From Candidatus Persebacteraceae bacterium Df01 (GTDB taxonomy: Bacteria; Pseudomonadota; Gammaproteobacteria; Tethybacterales; Persebacteraceae), in the NCBI GenBank assembly GCA_030386295.1, contig JANQAO010000001.1:447546-511545 (forward strand): a stretch of 64,000 bases of DNA, written 5' to 3'. The translations under genes and the position numbers were made by a program. The number at the start of each line of letters is the position of its first letter. Position 1 is the first letter of the stretch. This document shows, in pieces, positions 12,345-31,111 of this stretch. The notes beneath the pieces were generated by a model that worked only from the letters and a program-made list of their open reading frames with translations, had not been told where the DNA came from and searched no databases.

Positions 12345-13112
12345 ATGTTAAGCACGCAAAAAGCTGAGAATTCTGGTGAACCCTGCATTTGTTTGGATAA
12401 GGTTAACAAATGGTATGGGCAATTTCATGTATTGCGGGATATTAATTTGAAGGTACACGCCGGTGAACGCATCGTTGTGTGTGGTCCATCGGGTAGCGGC
12501 AAGTCTACAATGATTCGTTGTATTAATCGCTTGGAAGCACATCAAGAAGGCTCTATAGTGGTGGATGGTATAGAGCTTAATGATGACCTTAAACACATAG
12601 ATGAAATCCGCCGCGAAGTGGGTATGGTATTTCAGCACTTTAACTTGTTTCCGCATTTAACTGTGTTGCAAAATCTTACCTTGGCGCCGATTTGGGTTCG
12701 CAACACGCCTAAAAAGGAAGCTGAAGCAACTGCGATGCATTATCTGGAGCGGGTGCGCATTCCCGAGCAGGCGGAAAAATATCCGGGACAATTATCGGGT
12801 GGTCAGCAGCAACGAGTGGCGATTGCTCGTTCTTTGTGCATGAAGCCCAAAATCATGTTATTTGATGAACCGACGTCGGCGCTAGATCCGGAAATGATTA
12901 AGGAAGTGTTGGACGTGATGATTGAATTGGCTCAAGAAGGAATGACCATGATTTGTGTGACTCACGAGATGGGTTTTGCTCGCACAGTGGCAAACCGCGT
13001 GATTTTCATGGATGAGGGACAAATTGTGGAAGAAAATGAGCCAGAAGAATTTTTTAATAATCCTCAGAACGAGCGCACCCAGCTATTTTTGAGCCAAATC
13101 TTATCGCATTGA
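12345..13112 (+). CDS. aapP: General L-amino-acid ABC transporter ATPase AapP
   Basis: AapP hydrolyses ATP on the cytoplasmic face to drive uptake by AapQM. The 255-residue protein has Walker [10 protein letters not shown], the Q-loop in [16 protein letters not shown], the ABC signature [15 protein letters not shown], Walker [15 protein letters not shown] and the switch histidine in VTHEMGFA. The true start is ATG 12345, as the frame upstream runs back into aapM without similarity. The binding site is weak (AGAGAA). This completes the aapJQMP operon; no terminator is evident after it. Confidence 0.95.
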
Positions 13113-13325
13113 TAACCGACGATAAGCTACAAGCCCGACAAAAATCCTTTGAATCGCCATTGTTTTTTAGTTGCGGATATTGATAAAGTGGCTTTTGAAT
13201 TTTTGATGACTGACGTTATGTTAGTTACGCTTTTTGACGATTAGCACGCATTATAAAATATTAAAATGGGCTACAATTATTGCCTGTTGTGATTGATACT
13301 ACATAATCAACAAGAGGAGAAAGTA

Positions 13326-14435
13326 ATGCAGACACAAGCAGCTATTGCAACTGCCGCTGGGCAACCACTTACCGTTGAAACCGTTAATTTGGATGGTCCC
13401 AGAGCGGGTGAAGTGTTGGTGGAAATCAAAGCCACTGGTATTTGTCATACTGACGAATTTACCTTGTCAGGCGCCGATCCAGAAGGACTCTTTCCCGCGA
13501 TACTTGGGCACGAGGGTGCCGGCGTGGTAGTAGAAACCGGAGAGGGTGTTACTTCTTTAAGGTCGGGAGACCATGTTATTCCCTTGTACACGCCAGAATG
13601 CCGCCAATGTGAATATTGTACCAGCGGCAAAACTAACCTCTGTCAGGCAATTCGTACTACGCAAGGGCGTGGTGTTATGCCTGACGGCAGCAGCCGTTTT
13701 TCGCTGGGCGGTGATTCCTTATTTCATTACATGGGCACTTCTACATTCTCCAATTACACCGTGTTGCCTGAGATTGCAGTCGCTAAAGTTCGCGAAGATG
13801 CCCCTTTTGACAAGGTGTGTTACATTGGTTGTGGTGTAACCACCGGTATCGGTGCAGTTATTAACACCGCCAAAGTCAAGCCTGGCGACAATGTGGTGGT
13901 GTTTGGGCTTGGCGGCATCGGGTTGAACGTAGTGCAGGGCGCTCGGCTGGTGGGCGCAGACAAAATCGTTGGAGTGGATATTAATCCGGCGCGGCGTGAA
14001 ATGGCAGAGCGGTTTGGCATGACGCATTTTGTTAATCCGAAGGAAGTAGAAGGTGATTTGGTGCCGTATTTGGTCAATTTGACGGGAGGCGGTGCTGATT
14101 TTAGTTTTGAATGCATAGGAAATGTAGACACCATGCGACAAGCACTAGAGTGCTGTCACAAGGGGTGGGGAGAGTCGGTTATTGTTGGTGTGGCCGGTGC
14201 TGGGCAGGAAATAACAACTCGGCCGTTTCAATTGGTAACTGGTCGCGTCTGGCGTGGAACGGCATTTGGTGGGGCGCGGGGGCGTACTGATGTGCCAAAG
14301 ATCGTGGATTGGTATATGGAAGGAAAAATAGAAATTGACCCAATGATTACTCACACTATGCCACTGTCGGACATTAACCGTGCTTTTGGATTAATGCGCA
14401 AAGGCGAGTCCATTCGCAGTGTAGTAGTTTTCTAA
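13326..14435 (+). CDS. frmA: Class III alcohol dehydrogenase / S-(hydroxymethyl)glutathione dehydrogenase
   Basis: This zinc enzyme oxidises the glutathione adduct of formaldehyde, S-(hydroxymethyl)glutathione, with NAD+, and so detoxifies formaldehyde. Catalytic zinc ligands are visible at Cys40 (GICHTDEF) and His62 (GHEGAG). Structural zinc cysteines are at 92, 95, 98 and 106, in the segment starting TPECRQCEYC. The Rossmann motif is VFGLGGIGLNVVQGA, followed by VDINPARREMAERFG. The 369-residue length is right for class III. The start is ATG 13326, with AAGAGGAGA upstream. S-formylglutathione hydrolase, the usual partner, is not in the window. The neighbouring demethylating flavoenzyme and methyltransferase explain a need for formaldehyde removal. 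Confidence 0.94.
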   Translation: MQTQAAIATAAGQPLTVETVNLDGPRAGEVLVEIKATGICHTDEFTLSGADPEGLFPAILGHEGAGVVVETGEGVTSLRSGDHVIPLYTPECRQCEYCTSGKTNLCQAIRTTQGRGVMPDGSSRFSLGGDSLFHYMGTSTFSNYTVLPEIAVAKVREDAPFDKVCYIGCGVTTGIGAVINTAKVKPGDNVVVFGLGGIGLNVVQGARLVGADKIVGVDINPARREMAERFGMTHFVNPKEVEGDLVPYLVNLTGGGADFSFECIGNVDTMRQALECCHKGWGESVIVGVAGAGQEITTRPFQLVTGRVWRGTAFGGARGRTDVPKIVDWYMEGKIEIDPMITHTMPLSDINRAFGLMRKGESIRSVVVF

Positions 14436-14647
14436 TCCTCAGTTAAAATCAGAGTCATAGAAAAAACTGACTAGTAAAAATGTCAAATTAATCTGAGATG
14501 TGTTTCACTGAAAAAGCCAGAAAGTGAAATTGATAGGCATGCAATTAATTTTTAATACTAGGTTACAATTTGTAGACATTCTAGTAATTTTTACTGGGCA
14601 AAGGTGCTTTAAATTACCAATACAGTTATATCGTAAAGGAGATATTC

Positions 14648-22260: not shown

Positions 22261-22584
22261 ATGATTTTTACCACCACGCCTTCGATTGAAAGAAAGACTA
22301 TTACCGACTATCGCGGGATTGTCGCTGGTGAAGCAATTATGGGTGTTAATATTTTCAAAGATTTATTTGCCGGAATTCGCGATATTATCGGTGGACGTTC
22401 TGGTGCCTACGAACAAGAGTTGGAAAAAGCCCGTGCTGCTGCCTTCGAGGATATCGGGGCCAAGGCACGAGAATTAGGCGCAGATGCGGTAGTGGGCATT
22501 GACATAGACTATGAAGTTATTGGCGGCAGCTCCGGTAGCATGCTGATGGTATCGGTTTCAGGCACGGCGGTGTCATTGCGCTAA
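22261..22584 (+). CDS. YbjQ/UPF0145 family protein
   Basis: The 107-residue protein fits the UPF0145 (YbjQ) family, proposed as small heavy-metal-binding or oligomeric scaffold proteins with no firm function. Typical features are the start with TTTPSIE, the repeat-like [47 protein letters not shown] and the C-terminal SVSGTAV. No cysteines or obvious metal sites are present. AGAGGAA lies upstream of ATG 22261, and atpG follows after 15 bases, so the gene is embedded in the ATP synthase transcription unit. Confidence 0.88.
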
Positions 22585-22599
22585 CGTACAGGAGCAAAT

Positions 22600-23469
22600 A
22601 TGCCAGCAGCAAAAGAAATTCGTAACCAAATAAAAAGCGTTAAAAACACGCAAAAAATTACTAAGGCTATGGAAATGGTAGCAGCGTCTAAAATGCGGCG
22701 CGCTCAAGAACGTATGTCTGCAGCGCGTCCTTATGGAGAAAAAATTCGTGAAGTTTGTGCCCATTTAGCGCGCTCCAATTCCGAATATCGGCATCCATTT
22801 CTTACTCCTCGTGATAATGTTCGTAATGTTGGGTTTATCGTTGTTACTAGCGATAAAGGGTTGTGTGGAGGTCTTAATACCAACGCGTTGCGCTCAACAG
22901 TGGCGAGTATGCGCGAAAAAGAAGCGGCAGGGCTTGGCATTAAAGCGGCAGTGTTGGGTAATAAAGGAGCTGCGTTCTTGGGGCGCTTAAAAACAGATAT
23001 CTTGTCGCAGTACACTGGTTATGGTGATGCCCCCGAGGCAGCCGAACTCATTGGTGCTGTTACGGCGATGTTGGACTCCTACCGCAACGGTGATGTGGAC
23101 GAAGTACATTTGGTTTTTACTCGTTTTATCAATACGGTCAAGCAAGACTCGGTGGTGGAGCAATTATTACCGATTTCAGATGCAGTACTGGTGGAAGCAC
23201 CACGCAGTCATTCGTGGGATTATTTGTACGAGCCGGAGGCGGCACCAGTGGTAAATACGTTGCTTACAAGGTTTGTCGAAGCAGTGGTCTATCAGGCGGT
23301 GGCAGAAAATATCGCCTCTGAACAAGCGGCGCGCATGGTGGCAATGAAAGCAGCATCAGACAACGCAGGCAATCTCATTGACGAATTGCAGCTGGTGTAC
23401 AACAAATCACGTCAAGCCTCTATCACACAGGAAATTGCCGAAATTGTTGGTGGAGCGGCGGCGGTATGA
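22600..23469 (+). CDS. atpG: ATP synthase F1 subunit gamma
   Basis: Gamma is the rotating central shaft of F1. The 289-residue protein shows the N-terminal helix with [30 protein letters not shown], the [10 protein letters not shown] loop and the C-terminal helix [20 protein letters not shown] plus [19 protein letters not shown] binding site GGAGC precedes ATG 22600. Its stop overlaps the ATG of the following lipoprotein gene (ATGA) rather than leading directly to atpD. Confidence 0.97.
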
Positions 23470-24098
23470 CCATGCTGCGTTTGTTGCTATTGTCGGCGGT
23501 GGTTTTGCTGCAGTCGTGTGTCGGTGGGTCTTTGGGAGAGCCGCCCAGTATTCGTTCTAATAGTAATGATGTGGGTGATGTGGAGCTTGTCCTTGATCCA
23601 GTAAATGTGTGGTACGAAAAAAATACTTCCGAATCAGTGCAGGTGGAAGTAGACGGTCGCGCTTTTTACGTACGTAAGCGGCATAGTGGTGGCGTGTTTG
23701 AACAGGCGTGGGCACAAGCGGGATTGTTTTGGCATTCGCGTGGAAAAAAAGTTTTTCTTACCATTGTGACTTTTGGACCCAAAGTAACCATTCACGAAGT
23801 TTCTATTTGGGCAGGAAAGAATTACGGATTGTTAAGCAAAGCAAGAAATTTTCAATTCACGCCAGGAATATCAAAGTTGGATACACGCGAAACATCATCG
23901 GCAGCCTTTGAGATGAATTCGTCACTATTACAGGCGGTCGCCGATGCTGAAACTGCTCAAATGGTCATTAAAACAAGCCGTGGTAATTTAAAAATGGGAT
24001 TGGATGTGATGAGTGGTGATACGGAAGCTGATTTACGCCGTAGCGCCAGATATTTATTTACGTCTTTTGCCGACAAGGTGAAAGCCGCTCAGCAATAA
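23466..24098 (+). CDS. Putative lipoprotein of unknown function inside the atp operon
   Basis: I do not recognise a family. The 210-residue protein has a lipoprotein signal with lipobox LQSC (Cys18), followed by a Ser/Asn-rich linker and a mixed alpha/beta domain without cysteines. The region [15 protein letters not shown] and the later [21 protein letters not shown] look like beta strands. The C-terminus ([24 protein letters not shown]) is helical. Its ATG overlaps the atpG stop by four bases, so it is translated from the operon mRNA, and atpD follows 56 bases later. Start could also be Met3. Localisation to the periplasmic side of a membrane is inferred; a link to ATP synthase is unproven. 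Confidence 0.8.
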
Positions 24099-27125: not shown

Positions 27126-29708
27126 TTATTCAAGTATTAACTGACCACCAAAAAGAATAAAGTAATCGTTGGGCGTTGATAATCGATTGTCAGTTGTCGG
27201 CGCGGTTATTTCATACAGCAGGTCACCGTCGGCATTTTCATCACTGTCTAGCCATTGACATAAATTAGTTAAATCTGCACCGCTTTCTTTCTGGCTGGCG
27301 ATTTTTATGACATTACTATTAACTGTGGAAGTGATGGTATATCTCATATCTTTAATACAACCGGACCGAGAAAGCGGTGCTGGACTATAAATTAATAACG
27401 CTGGAATATTTTTTATATATGCAGCATTGCGGCCAATTATTTTAGTGCCAACTTGTATGCTAATGCTCACGCCATCAGAAAATTTAAAATTGGCAGGTAA
27501 GTAGAAATCAGCTAGGTGTTGGTTGTTAACGGTAACAGAAAAAATAACAGGATGTATTAAGGTTAAATTGAGTTGCGCTTTGCCATTATTAACAATGATT
27601 TTTTCGTTGATGCCGTTCATTTGAATGGTTGTCGTATAAGAATGCGTTAATGTAAACGCCTTTGGTAGCGCGATTGACGCGCCGTTGTTAATAGTAAGCG
27701 TGATGCCATTGGAAAGTCCACATTGTGTATTGTCGCCGCTATGGTGACAATTACCGGCAACAGCATAATGTATCGGCTGATCTTCAATAAAAGTACGTAG
27801 TTGGCGTTTCATGTTGCGCGCATCAAAGCAAGGTGGCCATGGATGCCAATTGTCTCGAGTAATAGCGGCAGCGCTCGAATTTGTTTCTTCATTCCACGGA
27901 TAAAGCACTGCCGGCGCATATACGGAATAATTTGAACCCACAATATCGGCGAGCATTAGAACAACAAAATGTCGTTTTTTATAGGAAGAAAGGGAGGGTT
28001 GATGATCGGTAAGCACGGTAGTTGTGCCGCTAGCATATCGCAAAGAGACACCACTGTACAGATCACTTGACCCTGAATAATCTTTCTCTAGCTTTATTAC
28101 GCTGCCAGTCGAAAATATTAATTTGTCTGTAGCCTTTATAGTAAGCATTTCAGATGAATTAGTAAGAATCATTTTGCCTAAAAAACCAGCTGCTGTTGTG
28201 GTTTGTACTGTTAGTTTTGTGTTATCTGATTTCGCTATCATTGTGGTTTTATAATGCTCTGGGAACCAACCAATAATGCTCTCGCTAGGATTAAGTGGCG
28301 TTTGTGACGGCACAATTAGTGTGCCACGATTCAGAATGATGGTAATTCCCGTGCTTAATGTGTAAATACCGTTGTGTCCTTGGATCTCTGTCGTGTTGAC
28401 GACAAAAGTACCGGTTGTCATTGATACGCGAGCATAGCGAGAAAGTGATACGGTATTAACATCAAGAGAAATGTCTGCTACGACAACTGTTGTTGGTGTG
28501 GAAAAGGCATAATTATCATGAAGCAAAAAACCGACGATGGATGTAATCGTCAACGTTGCTATATTTTGTGAGAACGATGTCGGACCGATGGCTTCTAAAG
28601 ATGCGGGCAAAATAACTGTTATGGATGCGGCAGTGACGGAAATAGACAATGGCTGTGTTCCGCTATTGTAAGTGGCGCAATGTCGCAGGAGGCCGTCAAG
28701 ATTTGTTATGCTGTTGGCAGCAGGTAGCGGATAAAAGCCAAAAAAATCACGCCAATTAACAACGGCATCACGCAACAAAGCCAGCGGACGTTTTTCAATG
28801 GGCGCGTTGTGCAAGTCGCTTATGCCAACTACATGCCGGTAGCGATTTATGAATGTGCCATTGTTTACCAATAGCTCGTCAATACTTATGTAGATAAGTA
28901 TGTCATTAAAGCTATCACTGGGATGTGCCTGTACAAAAAATCCATCCTTGTCGGCATTACTTTCGCTTAGTGTTTTTTCAAAATATAAAGTAGGATTAAT
29001 TTTGTCATTATTATGATTCAAGCTGATTGTTATCAATATACTTTCTGACAGTCGAAATTGTTTATCACTGCCGGGTGAAAGAATAACCGCAGCAATACGC
29101 TTATCACTCCCAACCAAAGACGTGACTTCAAGCCAGTCCTCTTGCAATGCTGCTAAGCGGTGCAGATTTAATGGCTTAAGATCTAAATTATTTTCTTTTT
29201 TAGTAGGCACTAGATTTTTTGATACCGCGTACCATAAACGATTGCCATACGCATCTTTGAAGTCACGACCTAGCCCGTCTTCAATTTGATTATTTGCATC
29301 TACACCTTTGTCTATTTTTGTGTTCCACGGCAGGCGACCAAAACGGCTACCGCTATCAAGAACGTCATTGTTATTTTCTGCACCGCAAGTTGGATCTTGA
29401 GAACCGTCCAATATGTGGTCGCCTAAATTATCCGGACAGGGCAGCATGAGCAAACGCGGGTAAATTTTTCCTGGCCCGGCAATGTTCAGCGGGTTATCAG
29501 CCCGCAGTAACATGTAATTGATGAGTGATTTTTTTGCTTGTCGCAGGGTGCGATTACTTTCCTGCTGTCGCAGGTTGTCATGATTTTCAAAATAAGATAA
29601 TTCATTGTAAGCCAAAGTTCCAGTGAGAGTGCCGCCAATGACAACAACAATAAAAACAAGCAGTGAAAGTCCTCGCTGCTTTGCGTTTTTCCTCCCAGTA
29701 ATATGCAT
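27126..29708 (-). CDS. Large prepilin-like membrane-anchored protein of unknown function (860 aa)
   Basis: Residues 11-33 look like a type IV prepilin leader and helix (RG, then LSLLVFIVVVIGGTL), but the usual Glu5 is a valine, as in some minor pseudopilins. Residues 80-165 contain LPCPDN, GRLPWN and DAYGNRLWYAVS, resembling from memory a family of uncharacterised gammaproteobacterial secretion/pilus-associated proteins. The rest is a long, threonine- and serine-rich, probably beta-rich exported region, with a short motif recurring near residues 451, 531, 550, 665 and 743 (like LS.GITI...G..I). At least ten cysteines are spread along it. The gene starts 2 bases after leuC. It is visibly richer in A+T than its neighbours. 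Function unknown. Confidence 0.75.
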   Translation of the reverse strand: MHITGRKNAKQRGLSLLVFIVVVIGGTLTGTLAYNELSYFENHDNLRQQESNRTLRQAKKSLINYMLLRADNPLNIAGPGKIYPRLLMLPCPDNLGDHILDGSQDPTCGAENNNDVLDSGSRFGRLPWNTKIDKGVDANNQIEDGLGRDFKDAYGNRLWYAVSKNLVPTKKENNLDLKPLNLHRLAALQEDWLEVTSLVGSDKRIAAVILSPGSDKQFRLSESILITISLNHNNDKINPTLYFEKTLSESNADKDGFFVQAHPSDSFNDILIYISIDELLVNNGTFINRYRHVVGISDLHNAPIEKRPLALLRDAVVNWRDFFGFYPLPAANSITNLDGLLRHCATYNSGTQPLSISVTAASITVILPASLEAIGPTSFSQNIATLTITSIVGFLLHDNYAFSTPTTVVVADISLDVNTVSLSRYARVSMTTGTFVVNTTEIQGHNGIYTLSTGITIILNRGTLIVPSQTPLNPSESIIGWFPEHYKTTMIAKSDNTKLTVQTTTAAGFLGKMILTNSSEMLTIKATDKLIFSTGSVIKLEKDYSGSSDLYSGVSLRYASGTTTVLTDHQPSLSSYKKRHFVVLMLADIVGSNYSVYAPAVLYPWNEETNSSAAAITRDNWHPWPPCFDARNMKRQLRTFIEDQPIHYAVAGNCHHSGDNTQCGLSNGITLTINNGASIALPKAFTLTHSYTTTIQMNGINEKIIVNNGKAQLNLTLIHPVIFSVTVNNQHLADFYLPANFKFSDGVSISIQVGTKIIGRNAAYIKNIPALLIYSPAPLSRSGCIKDMRYTITSTVNSNVIKIASQKESGADLTNLCQWLDSDENADGDLLYEITAPTTDNRLSTPNDYFILFGGQLILE

Positions 29709-29710
29709 TC

Positions 29711-31111
29711 TTAACCGGAAATGTCAACAAACCTTCCGTTAATTGCCGCCGCAGCTGCCATCGCGGGGCTTACCAAATGAGTGCGTGCTTTGTATCCTTG
29801 TCGCCCTTCAAAGTTGCGGTTAGAAGTGGAAGCGCAACGTTCACCGACGCCCACGCGATCTTCGTTCATTCCCAAACACATGGAGCAACCCGGATGACGC
29901 CATTCAAAGCCAGATTCTATAAAAATTTCGTGTAAGCCTTCATTTTCAGCTTGCTCGCGCACCAACCCAGAGCCAGGTACTACTATCGCTTGTTTGATAT
30001 TGCCGGCTAATTTCTGTCCTTTGACAACGGCGGCAGCAATGCGTAAGTCTTCAATGCGTGCGTTAGTGCAAGAGCCGATAAATATTTTGTCTGGGTAAAT
30101 ATCGGTGATAGGGGTTCCCGGCTTCAAATCCATATAAGCGAGTGCTTTTTCCATACCTGCACGTTTGATAGGATCAGGTTCGTTCGCAGGGTCGGGTACA
30201 CAGCTGTTGACGCTGACAACCATTTCTGGTGACGTTCCCCACGATACTTGTGGTTGAATGGTGGCAGCGTCTAATGTTTCCACACGGTCGAAAAGAGCAT
30301 CGTCATCAGTTTTTAATGTGCGCCAATACTCACACGCGCTATCCCATTCTTCGCCTTGTGGTGCCATCGGGCGATGGTGCACAAAATTTAGCGTAGTGTC
30401 ATCTACACCAATCATACCGGCACGGGCACCCGCTTCAATAGACATGTTACAGATAGTCATGCGCCCAGCCATGTCCATATTACGAATAGTATCTCCAGCG
30501 TATTCTAGGGCATAGCCAACACCGCCGGCAGTACCGATTTTGCCGATAATTGCCAGTATCACATCTTTGGCACCGACACCGCGACGCAAGAGACCATTAA
30601 TTTCAATTTTCATTGTTTTGGCGCGTCGCGCATACAAGCATTGTGTTGCCATGACATGCTCAATTTCGGAAGTCCCGACGCCCATCGCCAGACAGCCAAA
30701 AGCGCCGTGGGTACTGGTATGTGAATCACCACACACTACGGTCATACCGGGTAAGGTCAATCCCTGTTCAGGGCCAATAATATGAACAATGCCTTGGCGG
30801 CGGTCATTCATGCTAATCTGATACACGCCGAAATGGCGGCAATTTTCATCCAACGTTTGCAGTTGTAATTTTGAAATATCGTCACTGATATTGCTACGAT
30901 TTACTGTGGGAACATTGTGGTCAGGTACAGCGAGAATAGATTGTGTTCGCCATAGAGGACGATTGTTTAACCGCAATCCCTCAAAAGCCTGCGGGCTAGT
31001 GACTTCGTGTACTAGGTGGCGGTCAATATAAAGTAGCACCTGCCCGTCATCATTTTCTCGCACGACGTGCTTTTGCCATAATTTTTCGTACAATGTGCGT
31101 GCGCAAGCCAT
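29711..31111 (-). CDS. leuC: 3-isopropylmalate dehydratase large subunit
   Basis: LeuC with LeuD isomerises 2-isopropylmalate to 3-isopropylmalate in leucine synthesis. The 466-residue protein begins [12 protein letters not shown] and has [12 protein letters not shown], plus the iron-sulfur cluster cysteines in [13 protein letters not shown] and [13 protein letters not shown]. All core residues appear intact. Normally leuD follows, but here the next gene on the same strand is the 860-residue prepilin-like protein, and leuD and leuB are not in the window. Confidence 0.97.

Follow-up and report, generated by a model that had tools for sequence, protein, structure and literature searches.

A large Glu5-less prepilin-like protein encoded behind leuC belongs to a widespread, unnamed family linked to an MshE-type filament operon

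Pilins of the GspK family are larger and lack Glu5, which has been proposed as the signature of the first, tip-located subunit (PMC5207764). The minor pseudopilins GspK/XcpX of type II secretion systems (T2SS) and the PilX-type minor pilins have a prepilin-like N-terminus in which a hydrophobic residue replaces Glu5, exceed their partner pilins in size and are encoded among Glu5-bearing partners. In GspK the body of the pilin is interrupted by an additional domain, and GspK-type genes reportedly lie at the 3′ end of their cluster. Where pilins bear large modules, these are probably tip-displayed and can be adhesins (PMC8179133). Modular type IV pilins of this kind include PilB and PilC of S. 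sanguinis and CofB of enterotoxigenic E. coli (ETEC), in which a large module, likely tip-exposed and plausibly an adhesin, sits on a pilin-like part. The MSHA (MSH) pilus of Vibrio combines an MshE-type ATPase bearing the c-di-GMP-binding MshEN domain with an MshL-related secretin and an MshG-like platform.

The window analyzed here is a 64,000-nt stretch of the genome of Candidatus Persebacteraceae bacterium Df01 (1.53 Mb, 5 contigs). It encodes an 860-aa Glu5-less prepilin-like protein (27126–29708, minus strand) from a widespread protein family that has no name yet. What was an orphan ORF now has a place in a large family that lacks annotation and accompanies one conserved filament operon. 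The family resembles the GspK/XcpX and PilX-type proteins in its N-terminus, its size relative to partner pilins and its Glu5-bearing partners, and GspK also in its inserted domain. It differs from them in having no sequence match, a duplicated LPCPD/GRLPW/WYAVS core, and inserts of 0–810 aa in most members and far larger ones in some; its gene precedes the Glu5 partner. The PilB module is grafted on the pilin end, whereas the family module separates two related core halves and has no known lectin or vWA domain. The associated operon shares the ATPase, secretin and platform types of Vibrio MSHA, but its secretin falls below the cut-off of the MshL equivalog model (TIGR02519, 210.1 of 250.2 bits), and three machine proteins, M, N, and K (locus L027, 4959–7867, and relatives), match no Pfam or NCBIfam family. 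Gene order also appears to differ from that of the Vibrio MSHA operon. No description of this operon and no studied relative of the family were found in the literature.

The 860-aa ORF is open throughout and is a real gene. A chance frame is excluded by N-terminal homologues with profile E-values down to 1e-126 and by homologues that adjoin leuC in three genera. Its start is separated by 2 nt from the stop of the upstream leuC (29711–31111, minus), as the sequence-only reading had noted. The leuC gene is sound, scoring 757 bits against TIGR00170 (cut-off 560), and the two genes are likely co-transcribed and translationally coupled.

All parts of the protein are given here in minus-strand coordinates. 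Residues 1–13 (29670–29708) form a short, charged, class III-type leader, MHITGRKNAKQRG, that ends in Gly-1. The leader boundary reads MHITGRKNAKQRG/LSLLVFIVVVIGG (QRG/LSLLVFIVVV), with a hydrophobic residue at +1. Glu is absent from +5, where the family has a hydrophobic residue, mostly Leu, Ala, Val, or Ile. A prepilin-like N-terminus without Glu5, claimed earlier from the letters, is thus borne out. Residues 14–71 (29496–29669) comprise the hydrophobic N-terminus and a long α1 helix. AlphaFold2 predicts this helix at residues 11–71, ahead of a β-rich globular part, with pLDDT of about 77–94 over most of its length. The model of a 477-aa homologue (mean pLDDT 80) has the same long helix at residues 10–67.

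Residues 72–330 (28719–29495) are the first half of the core (LPCPD...GRLPW...LWYAVS...ILSPG...FND; profile E = 8.8e-36). The GRLPW...LWYAVS block had been described as conserved-looking, and six of its residues (G124, L126, P127, W128, W159, and Y160) are indeed invariant in seven homologues. Residues 331–632 (27813–28718) are a Thr/Ser-rich insert with low-confidence predicted strands, found by comparison in the leuC-linked clade only. Residues 633–860 (27129–27812) are the second half (HYAVAG...ALLIYSPAPLSR...WLDSDENADGD...NDYFILFGGQL) and contain a smaller insert near residues 690–740. The first half is unambiguous; the second gives a weak profile match (residues 731–856, E = 0.03) and is backed by BLAST to the C-terminal end of a 2598-aa paralogue and to a C-terminal piece from genome G002.

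Sequence searches of Pfam, NCBIfam, and the PDB returned no match for the 860-aa protein. The alignment and members of a 38-member family set matched neither PilX_N, T2SSK, N_methyl, nor any other family, with Pfam E-values considered up to 0.1. The protein and its relatives likewise fail the N_methyl and TIGR02532 models. Foldseek searches with the AlphaFold2 models of the 860-aa protein and the 477-aa homologue gave nothing significant: the former matched no solved GspK or pilin, and the top match of the latter was a type IVb pilin of ETEC at E = 0.12. The sequence-only reading had counted more than 600 residues without a recognized domain. It was right that no described domain is present, but about 300 of these residues are the lineage-specific insert and about 230 are the second half of a conserved core.

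Within the family, one core half is a relative of the other (hhalign probability 97–98%). In the 860-aa protein the duplicated core (residues 1–330 and 633–860) encloses an apparently swappable insert. For 44 members the positions of both halves could be assigned; their C-terminal half reaches the protein end or nearly so, and length differences fall in the intervening insert, which measures 0 to 810 aa. The inserts form groups without detectable mutual similarity; one insert family is common to 27 proteins, several of which have tandem repeats of about 70 aa, and the leuC-linked clade and a clade of giant paralogues have a separate insert each. A constant core with dissimilar insert groups suggests that the insert is an exchangeable module, although remote kinship among inserts is possible. 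The family is a natural series: the core stays constant while the proposed tip module may be missing altogether or reach thousands of residues, and the idea of modular tips would become testable through it. No internal repeats were found in the insert of the 860-aa protein. Inserts at loci L064, L078, L136, and L148 contain a tandemly repeated unit of about 70 residues (GDvVxNxTDGSxGxV...LxGGxxNxFxxGDxY) whose copies are 36–52% identical, and the two tandem-repeat proteins scanned against Pfam (L064 and L076) had no match.

A profile built on residues 1–330 detected relatives in 69 of 369 sampled genomes of the class, which named relatives indicate to be Gammaproteobacteria. At nearly all of 40 loci, the family gene lies downstream of mshL, mshN (encoding a TPR protein), mshE, mshG, and the genes for M, N, and K, with which it shares its orientation; the next gene usually encodes a smaller prepilin with Glu5. 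The proposal to inspect homologue neighborhoods for pilus or secretion genes was therefore rewarded with an MshE-type operon upstream of the family gene. A scan of named genomes with M as query gave 80 loci, 59 of which extend more than 2.5 kb past M; the family gene is present in 55 of these 59, and an ExeA-like ATPase gene lies upstream of mshL in the named loci read. Most hosts are uncultured Gammaproteobacteria; Methylohalomonas lacus HMT 1 (L165, family gene at 12631–14469) is a cultured carrier, and a few hosts are Magnetococcales, Desulfobulbaceae, or members of other groups. Of the 369 sampled genomes, 63 have both M and the family, 6 the family without M, 11 M without the family, and 289 neither (Fisher odds ratio 276, uncorrected for phylogeny or kinship).

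When 164 aligned proteins were divided by residue +5, a split by definition, 93 lacked Glu5 and 71 had it; Gly-1 is present in all 93 Glu5-less family members. At every one of the 63 paired loci, Glu5 is missing from the first protein and present in the next; in 62 of these pairs the first protein is the larger. The family thus matches the GspK/PilX-type description (large, Glu5-less, beside Glu5-bearing partners) drawn from PMC5207764.

The window genome has one secretin, one assembly ATPase with an MshEN domain (PF05157, 65.6 bits; c-di-GMP motif model NF053729, 59.9 bits, cut-off 38), one PilT, and one prepilin peptidase (contig C3, 292279). The filament machine is on contig C1 (L027) and ends in K, with no family gene after K, as is also the case in G002. 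A candidate major pilin is encoded at L185 (8725–9459). Contig C2 carries four prepilin-like genes beside the 2598-aa paralogue. Giant paralogues of 2598 and more than 3200 residues (L018, 2804–10600; L060, 1–9611) occur beside clusters of prepilin-like genes.

Directly behind leuC, genome G001 has a frame for a 1033-aa homologue and G002 a 438-aa homologue piece at a contig end, its C-terminus being on another contig. In the core tree the three leuC-linked proteins form one clade (100/99), the giant paralogues are its sister clade (97/91), and both together are supported at 100/99. The simplest reading of these clades is a single duplication and a relocation behind leuC before the three genera diverged.

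The sequence-only reading had instead placed the gene where leuD is normally found and suggested acquisition. Its compositional observation holds: at 41.4%, the gene has the lowest GC content of the 48 window ORFs, which average 48.1% ± 2.9 (z = −2.3), and GC3 is also low (z = −2.2). A recently acquired cargo gene that displaced leuD could account for this composition and for the location behind leuC. However, 14 of the 15 lowest-GC3 distinct ORFs sampled, from a sample enriched for filament loci, are filament genes from several separate loci (L027, L018, L021, L185, and the window gene at 27126–29708), and PilT does not share their low GC3. Since low GC is common to filament genes, it is no proof of acquisition. 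The leuC link is also common to three genera in a single clade, and a 213-aa LeuD, directly followed by leuB, is encoded at 246.5 kb of contig C3. The Aconitase_C domain expected of LeuD is absent from the 860-aa protein and occurs in the genome only twice, in this LeuD and in a 905-aa frame on contig C4 that is an aconitase by its size. Replacement of LeuD was rejected, as was recent acquisition, which we regard as scarcely credible. The placement beside leuC is most simply an old relocation.

We consider it probable that the gene encodes a large, Glu5-less, minor-pilin-like subunit of an MshE-type type IV filament, placed at the tip, with the insert likely an adhesin. The machine, comprising an MshL-like secretin, an MshN-like protein, an MshE-like ATPase with its MshEN domain, MshG, and the unnamed M, N, and K, is encoded elsewhere in the genome, and the 860-aa protein would most likely be the tip piece of its filament. 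The protein would be inserted in the inner membrane, where α1 sits, and cut after Gly13 by the single prepilin peptidase. Because Glu5 is missing, the first position, at the tip, would be the only one open to it, in line with the proposal for GspK. Together with the smaller Glu5-bearing prepilins it would prime assembly. The MshE-like ATPase, probably controlled by c-di-GMP given its MshEN domain (PMC4624772), would then extend the filament through the secretin, with possible retraction by PilT. The insert between the core halves would be an exposed, ligand-binding part, and by analogy with modular pilins (PMC8179133) it probably acts as an adhesin. Counting against a tip pilin are the absence of any family match or significant fold match, the distance between the 860-aa gene and the machine in the window genome, the pLDDT below 50 predicted for the insert, and two loci (L113 and L156) at which the gene in the family position has Glu5.

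The main rival, which we judge unlikely, is that the protein caps the pseudopilus of a type II-like secretion system, a periplasmic filament with a GspK-like cap that aids protein export and not adhesion. The best model for MshG is GspF and the second best for MshL is GspD, GspK likewise lacks Glu5 and has an inserted domain (PMC5207764, PMC8179133), and an MshE-like ATPase of P. aeruginosa lies in a putative T2SS operon (PMC4624772). Yet the window genome has PilT, while T2SS reportedly have no retraction ATPase (PMC5207764). Moreover, inserts of up to 2000 aa seem more than a periplasmic cap would need, and neither GspK nor T2SSK is matched. The protein might also have nothing to do with a filament, its N-terminal helix anchoring a periplasmic or surface domain in the inner membrane without ever being processed or polymerized. 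Huge size, the missing Glu5, the lack of N_methyl and TIGR02532 matches, and a gene away from the machine would all suit such an anchor, but we find it very doubtful given that Gly-1 is kept in every Glu5-less member examined, a long α1 helix is predicted, and the operon slot lies between the machine and a Glu5 prepilin.

Beyond the tip subunit itself, it is quite possible, if short of probable, that these loci define a separate and still unnamed class of type IV filament under c-di-GMP control, widespread among Gammaproteobacteria, most of them uncultured, and present in some other groups. It would combine three machine proteins of no known family with a giant Glu5-less tip subunit that carries exchangeable binding modules between duplicated core halves and reaches 2598 to more than 3200 residues in this order. 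The loci flag a filament type that current models leave unnamed.

The ATP synthase operon in the same window also contains additional genes. A predicted 210-aa lipoprotein is encoded between atpG and atpD (23466–24098, plus), an unusual insertion in this operon, and a similar 232-aa gene occupies the corresponding site in another genus (L012, 10387–11085). A 107-aa ORF lies between atpA and atpG (22261–22584, plus) and presumably resembles the YbjQ family.
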